A stretch of 64,000 bases of DNA from Parerythrobacter aestuarii (GTDB lineage: Bacteria; Pseudomonadota; Alphaproteobacteria; Sphingomonadales; Sphingomonadaceae). The DNA lies in assembly GCF_030140925.1 (NCBI RefSeq), contig NZ_JARBWD010000001.1, positions 2,604,001 to 2,668,000 on the forward strand, read 5' to 3'. Below are positions 5,347 through 50,157 of this stretch, in pieces. A model generated the notes under the pieces. That model worked only from the letters and a program-made list of their open reading frames with translations, was not told the DNA's origin and did not search any database. Positions within the stretch are counted from its first letter, which is position 1; each line of letters starts with the position of its first letter. Both the position numbers and the translations under genes were made by a program.

Positions 5347-5415
5347 GTTCCCGCGAAGGCGGGAACCTCGGGACGCCTGGTCGAAACTGCCTGAGGCTCC
5401 CGCTTTCGCGGGAGC
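5347..5415. repeat. Paired-hairpin repeat, family A copy 1
   Basis: Two perfect stem-loops are joined by a short linker: GTTCCCGC/GCGGGAAC (5347-5366) and GCTCCCGC/GCGGGAGC (5396-5415). The same arrangement recurs at 33098, 48886 and 50083. Here it separates the convergent DUF1905 and RelA/SpoT genes. There is no T-run, so a terminator role is possible but not shown. Confidence 0.8.
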
Positions 5416-17793: not shown

Positions 17794-19227
17794 GTGACTG
17801 CACAACGGATCGGTCTGATTATCGGCGCACTCGGCCTGCTGGCCGGATTCCTTGCGCCTGTGCCGGGCAGCATGACGCGCGAGGCGCTGATCGTCGCTGG
17901 GCTGGTCGTGCTGATGGCGAGCTGGTGGATGACCGAAGCGATCCCGCTCACGGCCACTGCGTTGATGCCGTTCATCGTCTTGCCGCTGGGCGGTGTGATG
18001 GGTGCCAAGGCGACCGCGAGCGCCTATTACGCGCCTATCCTGTTCCTCTTGCTGGGCGGTGCATTCCTGGCGCTAGCCATCGAGCGGACCGGGCTGCATC
18101 GGCGGCTCAGCCTTGCCATCCTCAAGACGATCGGCAGCGGCGGTGACCAGTCGCGACTGTTGCTCGCCTTCATGGTTAGCGCGGCAGTTCTTTCCATGTT
18201 GATTTCCAACACCTCGACGTCGCTGATCATGATGCCGATGGCGCTGGCAGTCCTGCATGGCGGGGGTGTGCCCTTGGCCTCAAGCAGCGAAGCGGTAGGC
18301 CACAAGGAAGGCCTGGCTGGCGCACTGCCCATGGGCATCGCCTTTGCCGCCAGCATCGGTGGGCTCGGCACCATTGTCGGCTCACCGACAAACGGCATCG
18401 CGGTTGCCTTGCTCGATGAAATGACGGGACTGCGCATCAGCTTTGCCGAATGGATGGCCTATGGCTTGCCGGTTGTAATCGTTGGCGTGCCATTGGCCGC
18501 GTTCCTGATCTCGCGGGTGCAGCGCGTTTCCGCCCACCCTTTCGACGTAAAGGCGGCGCGTGCCACAATCGACGACCACTCTCCATGGTCCAGTGCTGAA
18601 AAGCGCCTGTTGCCGATCATCGCCATCACTTTCTTGCTGTGGATGAGTCAGCGCTGGGTTGCGCCCTACCTGCCGGAGGACAGCTGGACCGACGGCACTA
18701 TCGCCATCCTCGCGTCGCTGGCGCTGTTCCTGCTGCCTGACGGAACCGGGCGGCCCATGCTGAAATGGCAGGAAGCCGATCGTGCACCATGGGGTGTCAT
18801 TATGATGTTTGGCGGCGGGCTGGCGCTGGCAGCAGGCATGCAAGCCTCCGGCCTTGCCGAATGGCTCGGGCAAGCGTTGTTGCCGCTCGATGCACTCCCG
18901 CTGGTGGTGGTCGCAATCGCCATTGTCGCCATGGTCGTGCTGATCACCGAATTCGCCAGCAATGTCGCTACGGCGAGCGGGATCATCCCGGTGGTAGCGA
19001 GCCTGGTGGTGGCACTGGGGGTCGATCCGATCCTGCTCGCCATGCCCGCCGCGCTCGCTGCCAGCTGGGGCTTCATGCTTCCTGCCGGGACCGGGCCCAA
19101 CGCGATCGCATGGTCCACCGGTCACATCCGCATCGAGCGGATGGTCAAGGCCGGAATCCTGCTCGACCTCATCGGCATATTCCTGATCGTTGCACTGGTT
19201 TGGGCAGTGGCCGCAATCCTGGCATAG
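17794..19227 (+). CDS. SLC13/DASS-family sodium-coupled carrier
   Basis: This 477-residue inner-membrane protein has about eleven hydrophobic segments. SNTSTSLIMMPMALA and, in the second half, TEFASNVATASGIIPV form the paired signatures of the divalent anion:sodium symporter family, which take up dicarboxylates, citrate or sulfate. GGLGTIVGSPTNGIA lies between them. The duplicated SNT-type motifs are the sodium and substrate sites in the family. The start is GTG 17794 with GAGGGGAAG upstream. The substrate cannot be told from sequence alone; a C4-dicarboxylate is most common. Confidence 0.87.
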   Translation: MTAQRIGLIIGALGLLAGFLAPVPGSMTREALIVAGLVVLMASWWMTEAIPLTATALMPFIVLPLGGVMGAKATASAYYAPILFLLLGGAFLALAIERTGLHRRLSLAILKTIGSGGDQSRLLLAFMVSAAVLSMLISNTSTSLIMMPMALAVLHGGGVPLASSSEAVGHKEGLAGALPMGIAFAASIGGLGTIVGSPTNGIAVALLDEMTGLRISFAEWMAYGLPVVIVGVPLAAFLISRVQRVSAHPFDVKAARATIDDHSPWSSAEKRLLPIIAITFLLWMSQRWVAPYLPEDSWTDGTIAILASLALFLLPDGTGRPMLKWQEADRAPWGVIMMFGGGLALAAGMQASGLAEWLGQALLPLDALPLVVVAIAIVAMVVLITEFASNVATASGIIPVVASLVVALGVDPILLAMPAALAASWGFMLPAGTGPNAIAWSTGHIRIERMVKAGILLDLIGIFLIVALVWAVAAILA

Positions 19228-19257
19228 CGACATGGGATAATTTCATTTGTAACCGGT

Positions 19258-19406
19258 TGCACGGGTGCCGACGCGGCGGTATTTGCCTGTGCCAGCATTC
19301 AGGCACACCGTGCAGATGCGCTCCTGCGGAGGTTAGGAGCGGGCGGCCCGTGTGCCCATTGGCTCCTGCCTTCCTGGGAGCGTGACACAAGGAAGGTCCA
19401 TCACCG
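19258..19406 (+). promoter_or_regulatory. Structured 5' leader, candidate riboswitch or attenuator
   Basis: The leader can form a 12-bp stem with one bulge between TGCACGGGTGCC (19258-19269) and GGCACACCGTGCA (19302-19314). A second hairpin pairs GCTCCT (19320-19325) with AGGAGC (19335-19340). The same octamer GCTCCTGC recurs at 19362-19369, so AGGAGC could pair either way, a layout typical of switches. A third stem, GCTCC/GGAGC (19362-19366, 19377-19381), precedes the AAGGAAGG ribosome-binding site. The downstream gene is a cystathionine gamma-synthase-family enzyme, so sensing of S-adenosylmethionine or a related compound is a reasonable guess. It does not match a riboswitch consensus I can name with certainty. 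Confidence 0.45.
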
Positions 19407-20726
19407 ATGACCGATGCCGTCGACGCTGTCGATCAGCCCACCCCGCGCCGCAATCCCAAGCCCAAGGTGACCACCATCAACGGTCGCGAGATGAAGCCCA
19501 GCACGCTGATGATGGGCCATGGCTATGACCCGGCGCTGTCCGAAGGCTCGCTCAAGAGCCCGATTTTCCTCACTAGTACTTTCGCGTTCCCGAGCGCCGC
19601 CGACGGCAAGCGTCACTTCGAAGGCATCACCGGAATCCGCCCGGGCGGTGCCGAGGGCCTGGTCTATTCGCGCTTCAACGCACCCAACCAGGAAATCCTC
19701 GAAGACCGTCTCGCCATCTGGGACGGAGCCGAAGAGGCGCTGAGCTTCTCCAGCGGGATGACCGCGATCGCCATCCTGATGCTGGCCGCGTGCAAGGCGG
19801 GCGACGTGATCGTTCATTCCGGCCCGCTCTACGCTGCTTCCGAAGGCTTTGTCGCCAAGATCATGGCCAAATATGGCGTGACCTATGTCGACTTCCCCGC
19901 CGGAGCAACGCCGGCGGAACTCGACGCGGTGATGGCAAAGGCCAAGGCGCAGGCGGAAGCGCAGGGTGGCGAAGTGCCGCTGATCTACCTCGAAAGCCCC
20001 GCCAACCCGACCAACGCGCTGGTCGATGTCGAAGCGGTCAAGGTAGCGCGCGACGCGCATTTCGACGCCGACCGCTGCCCTATCGCCATCGACAACACCT
20101 TCCTCGGCCCGCTGTGGTCGCGCCCCCTCGAGCACGGCGCGGACCTGGTGGTCTATTCGCTGACCAAATATGTCGGCGGCCATTCGGACCTCGTCGCCGG
20201 CAGCGTCTCCGGCAAGAAGCGCTTCATCGATGCCATCCGCGCACTGCGCAACACCATGGGCGGGATCGCCGATCCCAATACCGCGTGGATGCTGTGTCGC
20301 AGCCTCGAGACCGTCGAACTGCGGATGCAGCGCGCGGGCGAGAATGCGGAGAAGGTCTGCGCTTTCCTCAAAAGCCACCCGAAGGTCGCCGGCCTCGGCT
20401 ATCTCGGCATGATCGAGGATGCGCGGCAACAGGACATCTATGACCGGCACTGCCTGGGGGCAGGCTCCACATTCTCGCTGTTCATCAAGGGCGGCGAGGC
20501 CGAATGCTTCCGCTTCCTCGATGCGCTCAAAGTCGCCAAACTCGCAGTCAGCCTCGGCGGGACCGAGACGCTTGCCAGCCATCCGGCCAGCATGACGCAC
20601 CTCTCCGTGCCACAGGCGCGCAAGGATGCGCTGGGCATCACCGACAGCCTGGTGCGCATCAGCATCGGCATCGAGGATCCGGATGATCTCATCGCCGACT
20701 TCGAACAGGCTCTGGCCGCAGTCTGA
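19407..20726 (+). CDS. Cystathionine gamma-synthase family PLP enzyme
   Basis: This 439-residue pyridoxal-phosphate enzyme belongs to the Cys/Met metabolism family (cystathionine synthases and lyases, sulfhydrylases, methionine gamma-lyase). YSRFNAPNQEILEDRLA and SFSSGMTAI are the family's cofactor and substrate segments. SLTKYVGGHSDLVAGS has the Schiff-base lysine near residue 255. SLGGTETLASHPASMTH is the C-terminal substrate motif. The N-terminus is about 30 residues longer than in short family members. Members are hard to tell apart by sequence, so the exact reaction is left open. A structured leader precedes it, which suggests control by sulfur-amino-acid status. Confidence 0.9.
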   Translation: MTDAVDAVDQPTPRRNPKPKVTTINGREMKPSTLMMGHGYDPALSEGSLKSPIFLTSTFAFPSAADGKRHFEGITGIRPGGAEGLVYSRFNAPNQEILEDRLAIWDGAEEALSFSSGMTAIAILMLAACKAGDVIVHSGPLYAASEGFVAKIMAKYGVTYVDFPAGATPAELDAVMAKAKAQAEAQGGEVPLIYLESPANPTNALVDVEAVKVARDAHFDADRCPIAIDNTFLGPLWSRPLEHGADLVVYSLTKYVGGHSDLVAGSVSGKKRFIDAIRALRNTMGGIADPNTAWMLCRSLETVELRMQRAGENAEKVCAFLKSHPKVAGLGYLGMIEDARQQDIYDRHCLGAGSTFSLFIKGGEAECFRFLDALKVAKLAVSLGGTETLASHPASMTHLSVPQARKDALGITDSLVRISIGIEDPDDLIADFEQALAAV

Positions 20727-22251: not shown

Positions 22252-23832
22252 CTAGCGGATTTCCAGCGTATAGCTGGGTCGCTCGCCTTCGGTTGCCACG
22301 AACCCTTCCGTCAGCACCCCGGCGGCCTTGTTCACAGGACCATCACCGACGATGCCGTCGCGGGTATGCAGTTCCACAGTGACTTTCTCGGGTTCCAGAC
22401 CTTCGGGAATATAGCTGTCCGCGCTCACCTTCAGCTTGCTCATGCAGTTGGCACAGCCTTCCACATTCCAGCGACTGAGTACGGGTTCGACATCGATCAA
22501 CTCGCGCTTGCCGTCGCGTTCGCCATAAATCGCGATCAGCATCGAACCGCGCACCTTGGACCGGTCAATACCTTCTACGTGCGCAACTTTCGGCGCGGCA
22601 GACGTTGTCATTGCCGCGAGCGAATCGACCGCCTTGGCGGCAGGAGCATCGAGCGATCCCGGGCCGTAGGTATAGCCCATCTGCCCTTCGATATCGATGC
22701 AATCCGCGCTGGTGACAGAGGCTCCACTGGCATCGACAAACGGTAGCAAGGGAGTCTGCAGCGACATCGTCGCGTTACGGTCAGCCCCGGCCGGTGGCGG
22801 ATTGTTCTCGCCATATGTGGCACCGGGATCGTTCGGATCGATGGTGAGGTTCTGGGTCGAACCGCTGCGCTGCTGCCATTTCCAGAACACATAGTCGATG
22901 AAGCAGTGGTGGAAGAAGAACACCGGATCGAGCCCGGCGGTGTTGTTCTCGCCCATGTCGCCATTGGCACCGGCGATGGGAGAGATATTCCCCTGCCCGG
23001 GCACGTCGAAACCGCCGACTGCCAAGTGCATGTAATTGTGCGGGCTTTCCAGCGCCATCACCAGCGATTGCGGGTTGGCGTTGTTGTAAGCGCTCGAGCT
23101 CGTGGTGTTGGAGAACAGCGTGTAGGTGGGTGCCGCAAGGCAGGCGACAAAGCGCTTGTGGATCAGTCCCCATGTGCCGCCGCCAACCACCACCTGGGTG
23201 TTGAGCCACTGCGTGATGTTGTAGTTCAGCTGCGTATTCTGGTCGGCTGCAGTAGGGAACTGCGCATTGTGCGCGGCGGATTCCGACTGCGCCTGCGGCG
23301 TACCGACGAGGCCGGAAAGCGGGTAGCGGACCGTCGCATACCCGGCAGGCTTGGAATACAGGGTCTGCCCGGCAACATCCTGGATCGCATCAGGCAGAGT
23401 GAAAGACCGTATCGGGTTGGGAATTTGCACGCCGTCGAGCGTATAGAACTCGTCTGTCAGGCAGGGGGGCAAGCCAAGAGAGAGGGATTGCTGGCTGGTT
23501 TCATCCCAGAACGGGAGCGTGACATCCTCGCAGCCCGGGATGGAGCGCAGCGCATTCTCCAGGCGCATCATGTAGGCCCGGTGCCAGGTCGGAAACAGGA
23601 CTGTGCCATGCTGGCAATAACCGCCCCACCAGGACGGGTCAGTCGCCCCTTCGCCGGTAAATGGCTCGCCATGATACCCGCCGATTACGAAGAATGAATT
23701 CGGGTCGGTGGCCGGCAGATCCTTGATCCCCTTCCAGGCGCGCATCAGGTTGTCGAGTTCGGTCGTATTGCCATTGTCGAAATCGGCCTGGATATCCCAG
23801 ATAGACCTGCGAACACGGATTGAATTAGTCAT
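22252..23832 (-). CDS. Tyrosinase family copper enzyme
   Basis: This 526-residue type 3 copper protein would oxidise phenols to quinones. The CuA site includes GGYHGEPF and the helix HGTVLFPTWHRAYMMRLE; the CuB site has ESPHNYMHLAVGG and DPVFFFHHCFIDYVFWKWQ. The C-terminal 150 residues form a beta-rich domain, as in plant and bacterial polyphenol oxidases where it can mask the active site. No signal peptide is visible. The ATG at 23832 has GGAGGGG seven bases upstream. It diverges from a gene of unknown function at 24004. Tyrosinases are sporadic in bacteria, so transfer is possible. Confidence 0.9.
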   Translation of the reverse strand: MTNSIRVRRSIWDIQADFDNGNTTELDNLMRAWKGIKDLPATDPNSFFVIGGYHGEPFTGEGATDPSWWGGYCQHGTVLFPTWHRAYMMRLENALRSIPGCEDVTLPFWDETSQQSLSLGLPPCLTDEFYTLDGVQIPNPIRSFTLPDAIQDVAGQTLYSKPAGYATVRYPLSGLVGTPQAQSESAAHNAQFPTAADQNTQLNYNITQWLNTQVVVGGGTWGLIHKRFVACLAAPTYTLFSNTTSSSAYNNANPQSLVMALESPHNYMHLAVGGFDVPGQGNISPIAGANGDMGENNTAGLDPVFFFHHCFIDYVFWKWQQRSGSTQNLTIDPNDPGATYGENNPPPAGADRNATMSLQTPLLPFVDASGASVTSADCIDIEGQMGYTYGPGSLDAPAAKAVDSLAAMTTSAAPKVAHVEGIDRSKVRGSMLIAIYGERDGKRELIDVEPVLSRWNVEGCANCMSKLKVSADSYIPEGLEPEKVTVELHTRDGIVGDGPVNKAAGVLTEGFVATEGERPSYTLEIR

Positions 23833-24003
23833 GGCAACACCCCTCCATTTCGGAAAAACACTCCGAATAAAACTCTGATGACGGACCCATATTTTTGTAA
23901 AATCTGAAATGACCACTAAATATTGCGGTTGTCAATATTCCCGGTTTGCCAAGCATCGAGAATTTTTATATTCACCTGCAGGACCAATCCGGGACATCGA
24001 CTC
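23833..24003. promoter_or_regulatory. AT-rich divergent promoter region
   Basis: This 171-base spacer is markedly richer in A and T than its neighbours and separates the tyrosinase gene from the divergent gene at 24004. For the plus strand, TTGCCA (23946-23951) and TATTCA (23969-23974) are 17 bases apart. On the minus strand TTGACA (23927-23932 reversed) is a good -35 but has no clear partner. Shared control of the two genes is inferred. Confidence 0.45.
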
Positions 24004-33097: not shown

Positions 33098-33178
33098 GAG
33101 CGCTCCAGCGAAGGCGGGAGCCTCCGTCCGCAGGCAGTACCCTGGTGGCCTGAGGCCCCAGCCTTCGCTGGGGCTCGC
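33098..33178. repeat. Paired-hairpin repeat, family A copy 2
   Basis: GCTCCAGC..GGCGGGAGC at the left and CCCCAGC/GCTGGGG at the right repeat the A-family arrangement. The left arm here is imperfect and the right arm is exact. It sits between hisA and hisH within one operon. Confidence 0.75.
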
Positions 33179-50082: not shown

Positions 50083-50157
50083 GTTCCTGCGCAGGCAGGA
50101 ACCTCATGCCGCAGGCGCGGCGACAATTTGAGGGAGGCCCCAGCCTTCGCTGGGGAG
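50083..50157. repeat. Paired-hairpin repeat, family A copy 4
   Basis: GTTCCTGC/GCAGGAAC (50083-50102) and CCCCAGC/GCTGGGG (50138-50155) are two exact stems with a linker. It lies between the alcohol dehydrogenase and the phosphotransferase and ends six bases before the latter's ATG. Confidence 0.75.

Follow-up and report, generated by a model that had tools for sequence, protein, structure and literature searches.

A conserved, structured mRNA leader precedes an enzyme gene of the cystathionine gamma-synthase family in the window, the 64,000-nucleotide stretch of the Parerythrobacter aestuarii contig analyzed here. Comparisons among relatives strongly support the leader as a real cis-regulatory element, and masking of the Shine-Dalgarno (SD) sequence is the best-supported mechanism by which it might control translation. 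The leader was found neither in Rfam 15 nor in the open PMC literature searched, and its best reading is an orphan translational control RNA. Its interest lies in being a regulatory RNA with good comparative backing that serves a single enzyme, presumably of methionine/cysteine metabolism. The features of the locus are as follows.

19257-19283, plus strand: probable promoter, TTGCAC (19257-19262) and GGTATT (19278-19283), placed by analogy with relatives
About 19302-19396, plus strand: conserved leader element (P1, internal loop, P2, linker, P3, SD)
19302-19313, plus strand: 5' side of P1, the outer variable stem (partner-swap energies, innermost-pair variation)
19314-19318, plus strand: conserved internal-loop segment on the 5' side, AGATG here and AGANG in the consensus (alignment A1, per-position information)
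19319-19341, plus strand: P2 hairpin, stem 19319-19326/19334-19341 with the SD-like loop CGGAGGT (RNA CGGAGGU) at 19327-19333 (covariation, partner-swap test)
19342-19345, plus strand: 3' side of the internal loop, GGCG (alignment A1)
19346-19356, plus strand: 3' side of P1 (same evidence as the 5' side)
19362-19381, plus strand: P3 hairpin, stem 19362-19368/19375-19381 with the loop CCTTCC (RNA CCUUCC) at 19369-19374 (covariation, partner-swap test)
19390-19396, plus strand: SD, AGGAAGG (GGAAG bias, loop:SD complementarity)
19407-20726, plus strand: PLP-dependent cystathionine gamma-synthase family gene (NCBIfam NF005455, PRK07049)

The assignment of the downstream gene to the cystathionine gamma-synthase family, already made in a preliminary description of this DNA, was borne out by a score of 673.1 bits against NF005455 (cut-off, 504). 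The genome encodes four strong members of PF01053, including this one. Because the other three score best as other named enzymes (methionine gamma-lyase, O-succinylhomoserine sulfhydrylase, and cystathionine beta-lyase, the second with a score under that model's cut-off), the window gene appears to encode an additional enzyme. Upstream of the leader is a DASS-type symporter gene that ends at 19227. An ORF elsewhere in the window, on the minus strand at 22252-23916, presumably encodes a tyrosinase, as judged from a motif in its translation.

Scans against Rfam 15, permissive ones included, matched no family to the leader. The window leader had no match, nor did the leaders of 20 relatives scanned at an E value of ≤5 (a single chance CRISPR-repeat match aside) or of 11 relatives scanned at the gathering threshold, and chance matches to isrO, TtnuCD16, and CRISPR-DR32 were discarded, all being far under threshold. 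The SAM/SAH riboswitch families did not reach the gathering threshold either, in agreement with the preliminary description, which could not identify the leader as a SAM-II, SAM-V, or SAH riboswitch. The pseudoknots of SAM-II, SAM-V, and SAM/SAH riboswitches mask the SD. According to two papers (PMC6061858 and PMC10516623), these three classes precede genes of the methionine pathway and regulate at the level of translation, and SAM-V is an H-type pseudoknot. The window leader shares with them its methionine-pathway setting and its proposed translational action but has an extra P1/P2 domain and no Rfam 15 match. The metXZ candidate RNA of beta-proteobacteria, a leader for which alternative structures have been proposed and which precedes genes of homocysteine synthesis, is terminator based in its published description (PMC4239095) and belongs to another class and other genes, a distinction drawn from that description rather than from an alignment. 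The same survey reports no SAM_alpha riboswitch in the order to which the window organism belongs. The open PMC papers searched yielded no description of the leader or of the repeat origin considered below.

A DNA search with window positions 19228-19480 gave matches at an E value of ≤0.01 in 137 of 249 family genomes, many of them partial. With a covariance model built from 74 leaders, 160 of 397 family genomes matched at an E value of ≤0.01, and 125 of the 397, each with one copy, contained a strong match (E ≤ 8.7e-9); the window genome likewise has a single strong match. The next-best matches (4.5e-7 and weaker) were mostly REP-like double hairpins among those inspected. Weak matches elsewhere (≤36.5 bits) were rejected as leaders, since most of those inspected were double hairpins of this kind, and several of them matched on either strand; one weak match, L122, was not of this kind. 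A class-wide sample of 385 genomes added just two further strong matches, both within the same family. We do not extend the leader beyond the family: outside it, 3 of those 385 genomes matched at an E value of ≤0.01, which is about chance level.

The leader is tied to its gene. The motif was present in all 80 loci fetched by protein (the best 80 of 543 relatives), and by script it lay directly 5' of a PRK07049-type gene on the same strand in 224 of 229 partly redundant loci. The five remaining loci (L138, L205, L227, L241, and L267) do match the covariance model, so it was the placement rule of the script that failed there. The regions upstream of 39 orthologs chosen for lacking a strong match contained none at an E value of ≤1; the L323 region lies inside the gene. 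When presence of the leader is mapped onto a tree of 65 orthologs, at least six changes are required, four of them forced by well-supported branches, which fits gain and repeated loss, or transfer, better than a single late gain. Nor is the leader a mark of the Erythrobacteraceae only, as it is also present in scattered other lineages. In six leaderless orthologs (L291, L293, L300, L301, L302, and L313), GGTTAC is closely followed by AACCATG at the start codon; this arrangement might represent an operator, or else a promoter from which a leaderless transcript starts.

On the evidence of aligned relatives, P1, P2, and P3 covary. Across 74 distinct leaders and 23 named pairs, 97.7% of cells are paired, and nine pairs are altered on both sides. 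Double-sided changes numbered 76 cells, compared with 19 on average for shuffles and a maximum of 19 for slid structures, a control biased toward a structure derived from these same sequences. Pairs in P2 and in P3 each vary among U-A, C-G, U-G, and G-C in these leaders; the innermost P1 pair occurs as G-C, C-G, A-U, U-A, and U-G and is unpaired in 9 of the 74. A less alignment-dependent assay compared the duplex energy of each stem within species with that obtained after partners were exchanged between species. P2 was more stable with its own partner than with swapped partners (−8.34 versus −6.32; z = −16.1), as was P3 (−8.74 versus −7.62; z = −11.4), and for neither stem was any of 200 swapped sets equally stable. 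P1 followed suit, at −16.4 kcal/mol compared with −14.2 for swapped partners (the lowest of 20 swapped means being −14.7) and −14.3 with its 3' side reversed. This stem is variable: its own partner ranked in the best 5% for only 19 of 161 leaders, and about one-third of swapped partners were, on average, equally or more stable.

The preliminary description had envisaged a switch built on mutually exclusive hairpins, one state of which would have the arms of P2 base-paired to those of P3. Its raw observations hold, as the octamer GCTCCTGC occurs at both 19320-19327 and 19362-19369 and AGGAGC is present at 19335-19340. P2 pairs with P3 in the minimum free energy (MFE) fold of the window species, and the cross-hairpin was the MFE form of 33 of 146 folded leaders, compared with 86 that formed both local hairpins and 27 that folded otherwise. 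Cross-pairing is not maintained across relatives, however; P2 5':P3 3' and P2 3':P3 5' scored slightly worse with partners from the same species than with exchanged ones (z = +1.8 and +3.0). This looks like a by-product of the similarity between the two stems in the window species, and we give a cross-pairing switch very little credence.

A further proposed component, a 12-bp bulged stem at 19258-19314, is indeed the MFE structure of that interval (−29.8 kcal/mol; z = −2.8; 3 of 200 shuffles equally stable) but does not belong to the conserved element and has no conserved sequence in relatives. It also overlaps the probable promoter. In 54 of 146 leaders, the best promoter-like pair places its −10 hexamer 44 to 48 nt upstream of the GGAGG loop, and in several relatives the pair reads TTGAAA-15 nt-GATAAT. 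Between 75 and 26 nt upstream of that loop, no position holds more than 0.28 bits of information; the values rise thereafter. A sigma-70-type promoter scan of 19100-19500 gave no match, and because the scan used for the relatives chose a different, weak site in the window, we infer the promoter and a transcription start near 19290 by analogy. If that start is right, the 5' arm of the 12-bp stem would not be transcribed. Folding energies by themselves are weak evidence here: 19228-19420 modestly beats shuffles (z = −1.96; 6 of 200), and 19291-19420 is unremarkable (z = −1.17; 24 of 200). What stands of the earlier proposal is a covarying structured leader before an enzyme gene. Its anatomy does not, and the coordinates move to about 19302-19396; the covariation check it had called for supports P1, P2, and P3 but not the P2/P3 cross-pairs.

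The loops of P2 and P3 are nearly invariant, while the stems drift. In P2, GGAGGU stays constant even where the remaining loop bases change (L171, L172, L212, L263, and L270), and the complementarity between the two loops is invariant in alignment A1. The 3' side of the internal loop is GGNG in most leaders and another sequence in some lineages. Several leaders (L033, L106, L166, L168-L170, L233, L254, and L266) have an additional GC-rich hairpin separating P3 and the SD, and the lineages with this hairpin mostly have a stronger SD (GGGAGG or AGGAGG).

The SD of the window gene, 8 nt past the P3 stem, is perfectly complementary to 19369-19375, which comprises the P3 loop and one base beyond it. 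Among 64 target genes, 35 had GGAAG in the SD window, whereas among 281 other predicted genes of the same loci only 4 did; these counts take the first ATG of long ORFs as a crude start and come from related orthologs rather than independent events. It was found in the SD of 129 of 161 unique leaders and in 1 of the 26 leaderless orthologs with an assignable start (of 38 leaderless). Loop and SD shared a Watson-Crick run of at least 5 in 86% of the 161 leaders, compared with 15% when SD windows were shuffled. Because loop and SD barely vary, the covariation for this pairing comes from one series: L074 combines the loop CCUUCC with the SD GAGGAAG, L028 combines CCUUCC with GAGGAGG, and L089 combines CCUCCC with GAGGAGG. 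The series, in its presumed order, suggests compensation through a G-U intermediate. Among other leaders with CCUCCC, L273 pairs better with its own loop and L275 equally well, and for L280, L272, and L281 (the last two mis-split by the script) CCUUCC would be the better partner. Where the spacer between P3 and the SD is 28 nt or longer, the loop is kept but a 5-nt run was seen in just 4 of 15 scored leaders, and several of these long-spacer leaders have the extra hairpin ahead of a stronger SD. L267 is ambiguous: its loop, CCUGCC, breaks the P2-loop pairing and mismatches the likely SD, and a complement, GCAGGC, lies at the usual distance with the start codon further on. Such exceptions make a second partner for the P3 loop worth considering. 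The natural candidate may be the GGAGG of the P2 loop, which can form five pairs with CUUCC.

These patterns point to a cis-acting mRNA leader that probably controls translation of the PRK07049-type enzyme, the P3 loop hiding the SD and the P2 loop perhaps releasing it. In one state, the P3 loop would pair with the SD as an H-type pseudoknot and keep ribosomes out; in the other, the GGAGG of the P2 loop would pair with the same CUUCC loop and free the SD. The choice between them would depend on a signal received by the P1/P2 domain, in which the internal loop is conserved. A terminator mechanism was set aside, since no terminator-like site was found for the leader.

The signal could be a small molecule from the metabolism of sulfur or of PLP, bound directly by the P1/P2 domain. 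Such a metabolite riboswitch would be a special case of SD masking, and we consider it a serious possibility, albeit one about which we are somewhat doubtful. The leader has the expected appearance, being conserved and covarying, lying upstream of a metabolic enzyme gene, and having conserved unpaired nucleotides in the internal loop and the P2 loop, but with one strong match per genome there is no regulon to point to a ligand. Near-invariant, short exposed loops on drifting stems might instead be the landing site of a trans-acting factor, such as a protein that binds RNA or a small antisense RNA that pairs with the exposed GGAGG or CCUUCC loop. CsrA binds GGA loops. A search for it (PF02599) found no member in any of 40 relatives, the window genome included, so CsrA control was rejected. 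We regard a trans-acting factor as unlikely overall. Another potential mechanism is a short upstream frame that ends in UAG directly after GGAGGU (MRSCGG-stop in the window) and would act by attenuation. UAG is in this frame in 158 of 161 leaders, and an in-frame ATG, GTG, or TTG is present in 120, compared with 42 and 35 for the other frames. Yet only 85 of the 161 have ATG and 41 have no in-frame start at all, the presumed start is often AGG or AAG, three leaders have TGA for TGC, and the TCC codon changes residue. With start codons often missing and residues changing, we rejected the frame as the main mechanism and think attenuation highly improbable.

P2 and P3 resemble the arms of REP dimers present in the window genome, which suggests that the leader may be a domesticated repeat. 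Among its weaker matches in other genomes, the covariance model picked up double hairpins that read GCTCCTGCGAAGGCAGGAGC ... GCTCCTGCCTTCGCAGGAGC. The window genome contains 25 exact CCYGCCTTCGCRGG arms, compared with none for the reversed control, and 10 of the 25 form five minus/plus pairs 50 to 54 bases apart, similar to the CGTC-type REP dimers of PMC3733652. The P2 and P3 octamers are 42 bases apart and ordered as in a REP dimer. The leader has the same order of two inverted hairpins as the head-to-head dimers of CGTC-type REPs described in PMC3733652, and P3 carries a CCTGCCTTC core; unlike those dimers, it is single copy and conserved in position, with enlarged loops and no CGTC tag. 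In place of the tag, AGANGCG precedes P2 in most leaders and a GCGTG-like sequence follows P3, as read by eye and uncounted. CGTC-type REP dimers occur without dedicated transposase genes, according to the same paper, and we found no PF01797 transposase gene in the window genome. The leader itself showed no multi-copy dispersal, either there or among the 125 family genomes with a strong match.

Scored against a REP-arm profile, P3 had a median of 10.8 bits, which 0.04% of 5,000 random hairpins equaled, and reversed P2 had 3.3 bits (0.3% of random hairpins as high), compared with an average of 27.6 for true arms. This null was designed after the resemblance was noticed, true arms score far higher, and there is no CGTC tag, so a REP origin is a lead rather than a result. 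We tentatively outline a scenario, possible though on the unlikely side, in which a head-to-head REP dimer, a mobile palindrome, was captured in a forerunner of the family and its loops were opened into an SD mimic and an SD mask, yielding an RNA switch kept in about one-third of the sampled family genomes. If true, it would show how a dispersed palindrome can become a regulator. In the window, REP arms with up to two mismatches numbered nine, compared with 5.6 expected, so that single arms are near chance; three REP-dimer-like inverted hairpin pairs lie at 5350-5412, 33105-33171, and 50086-50153.
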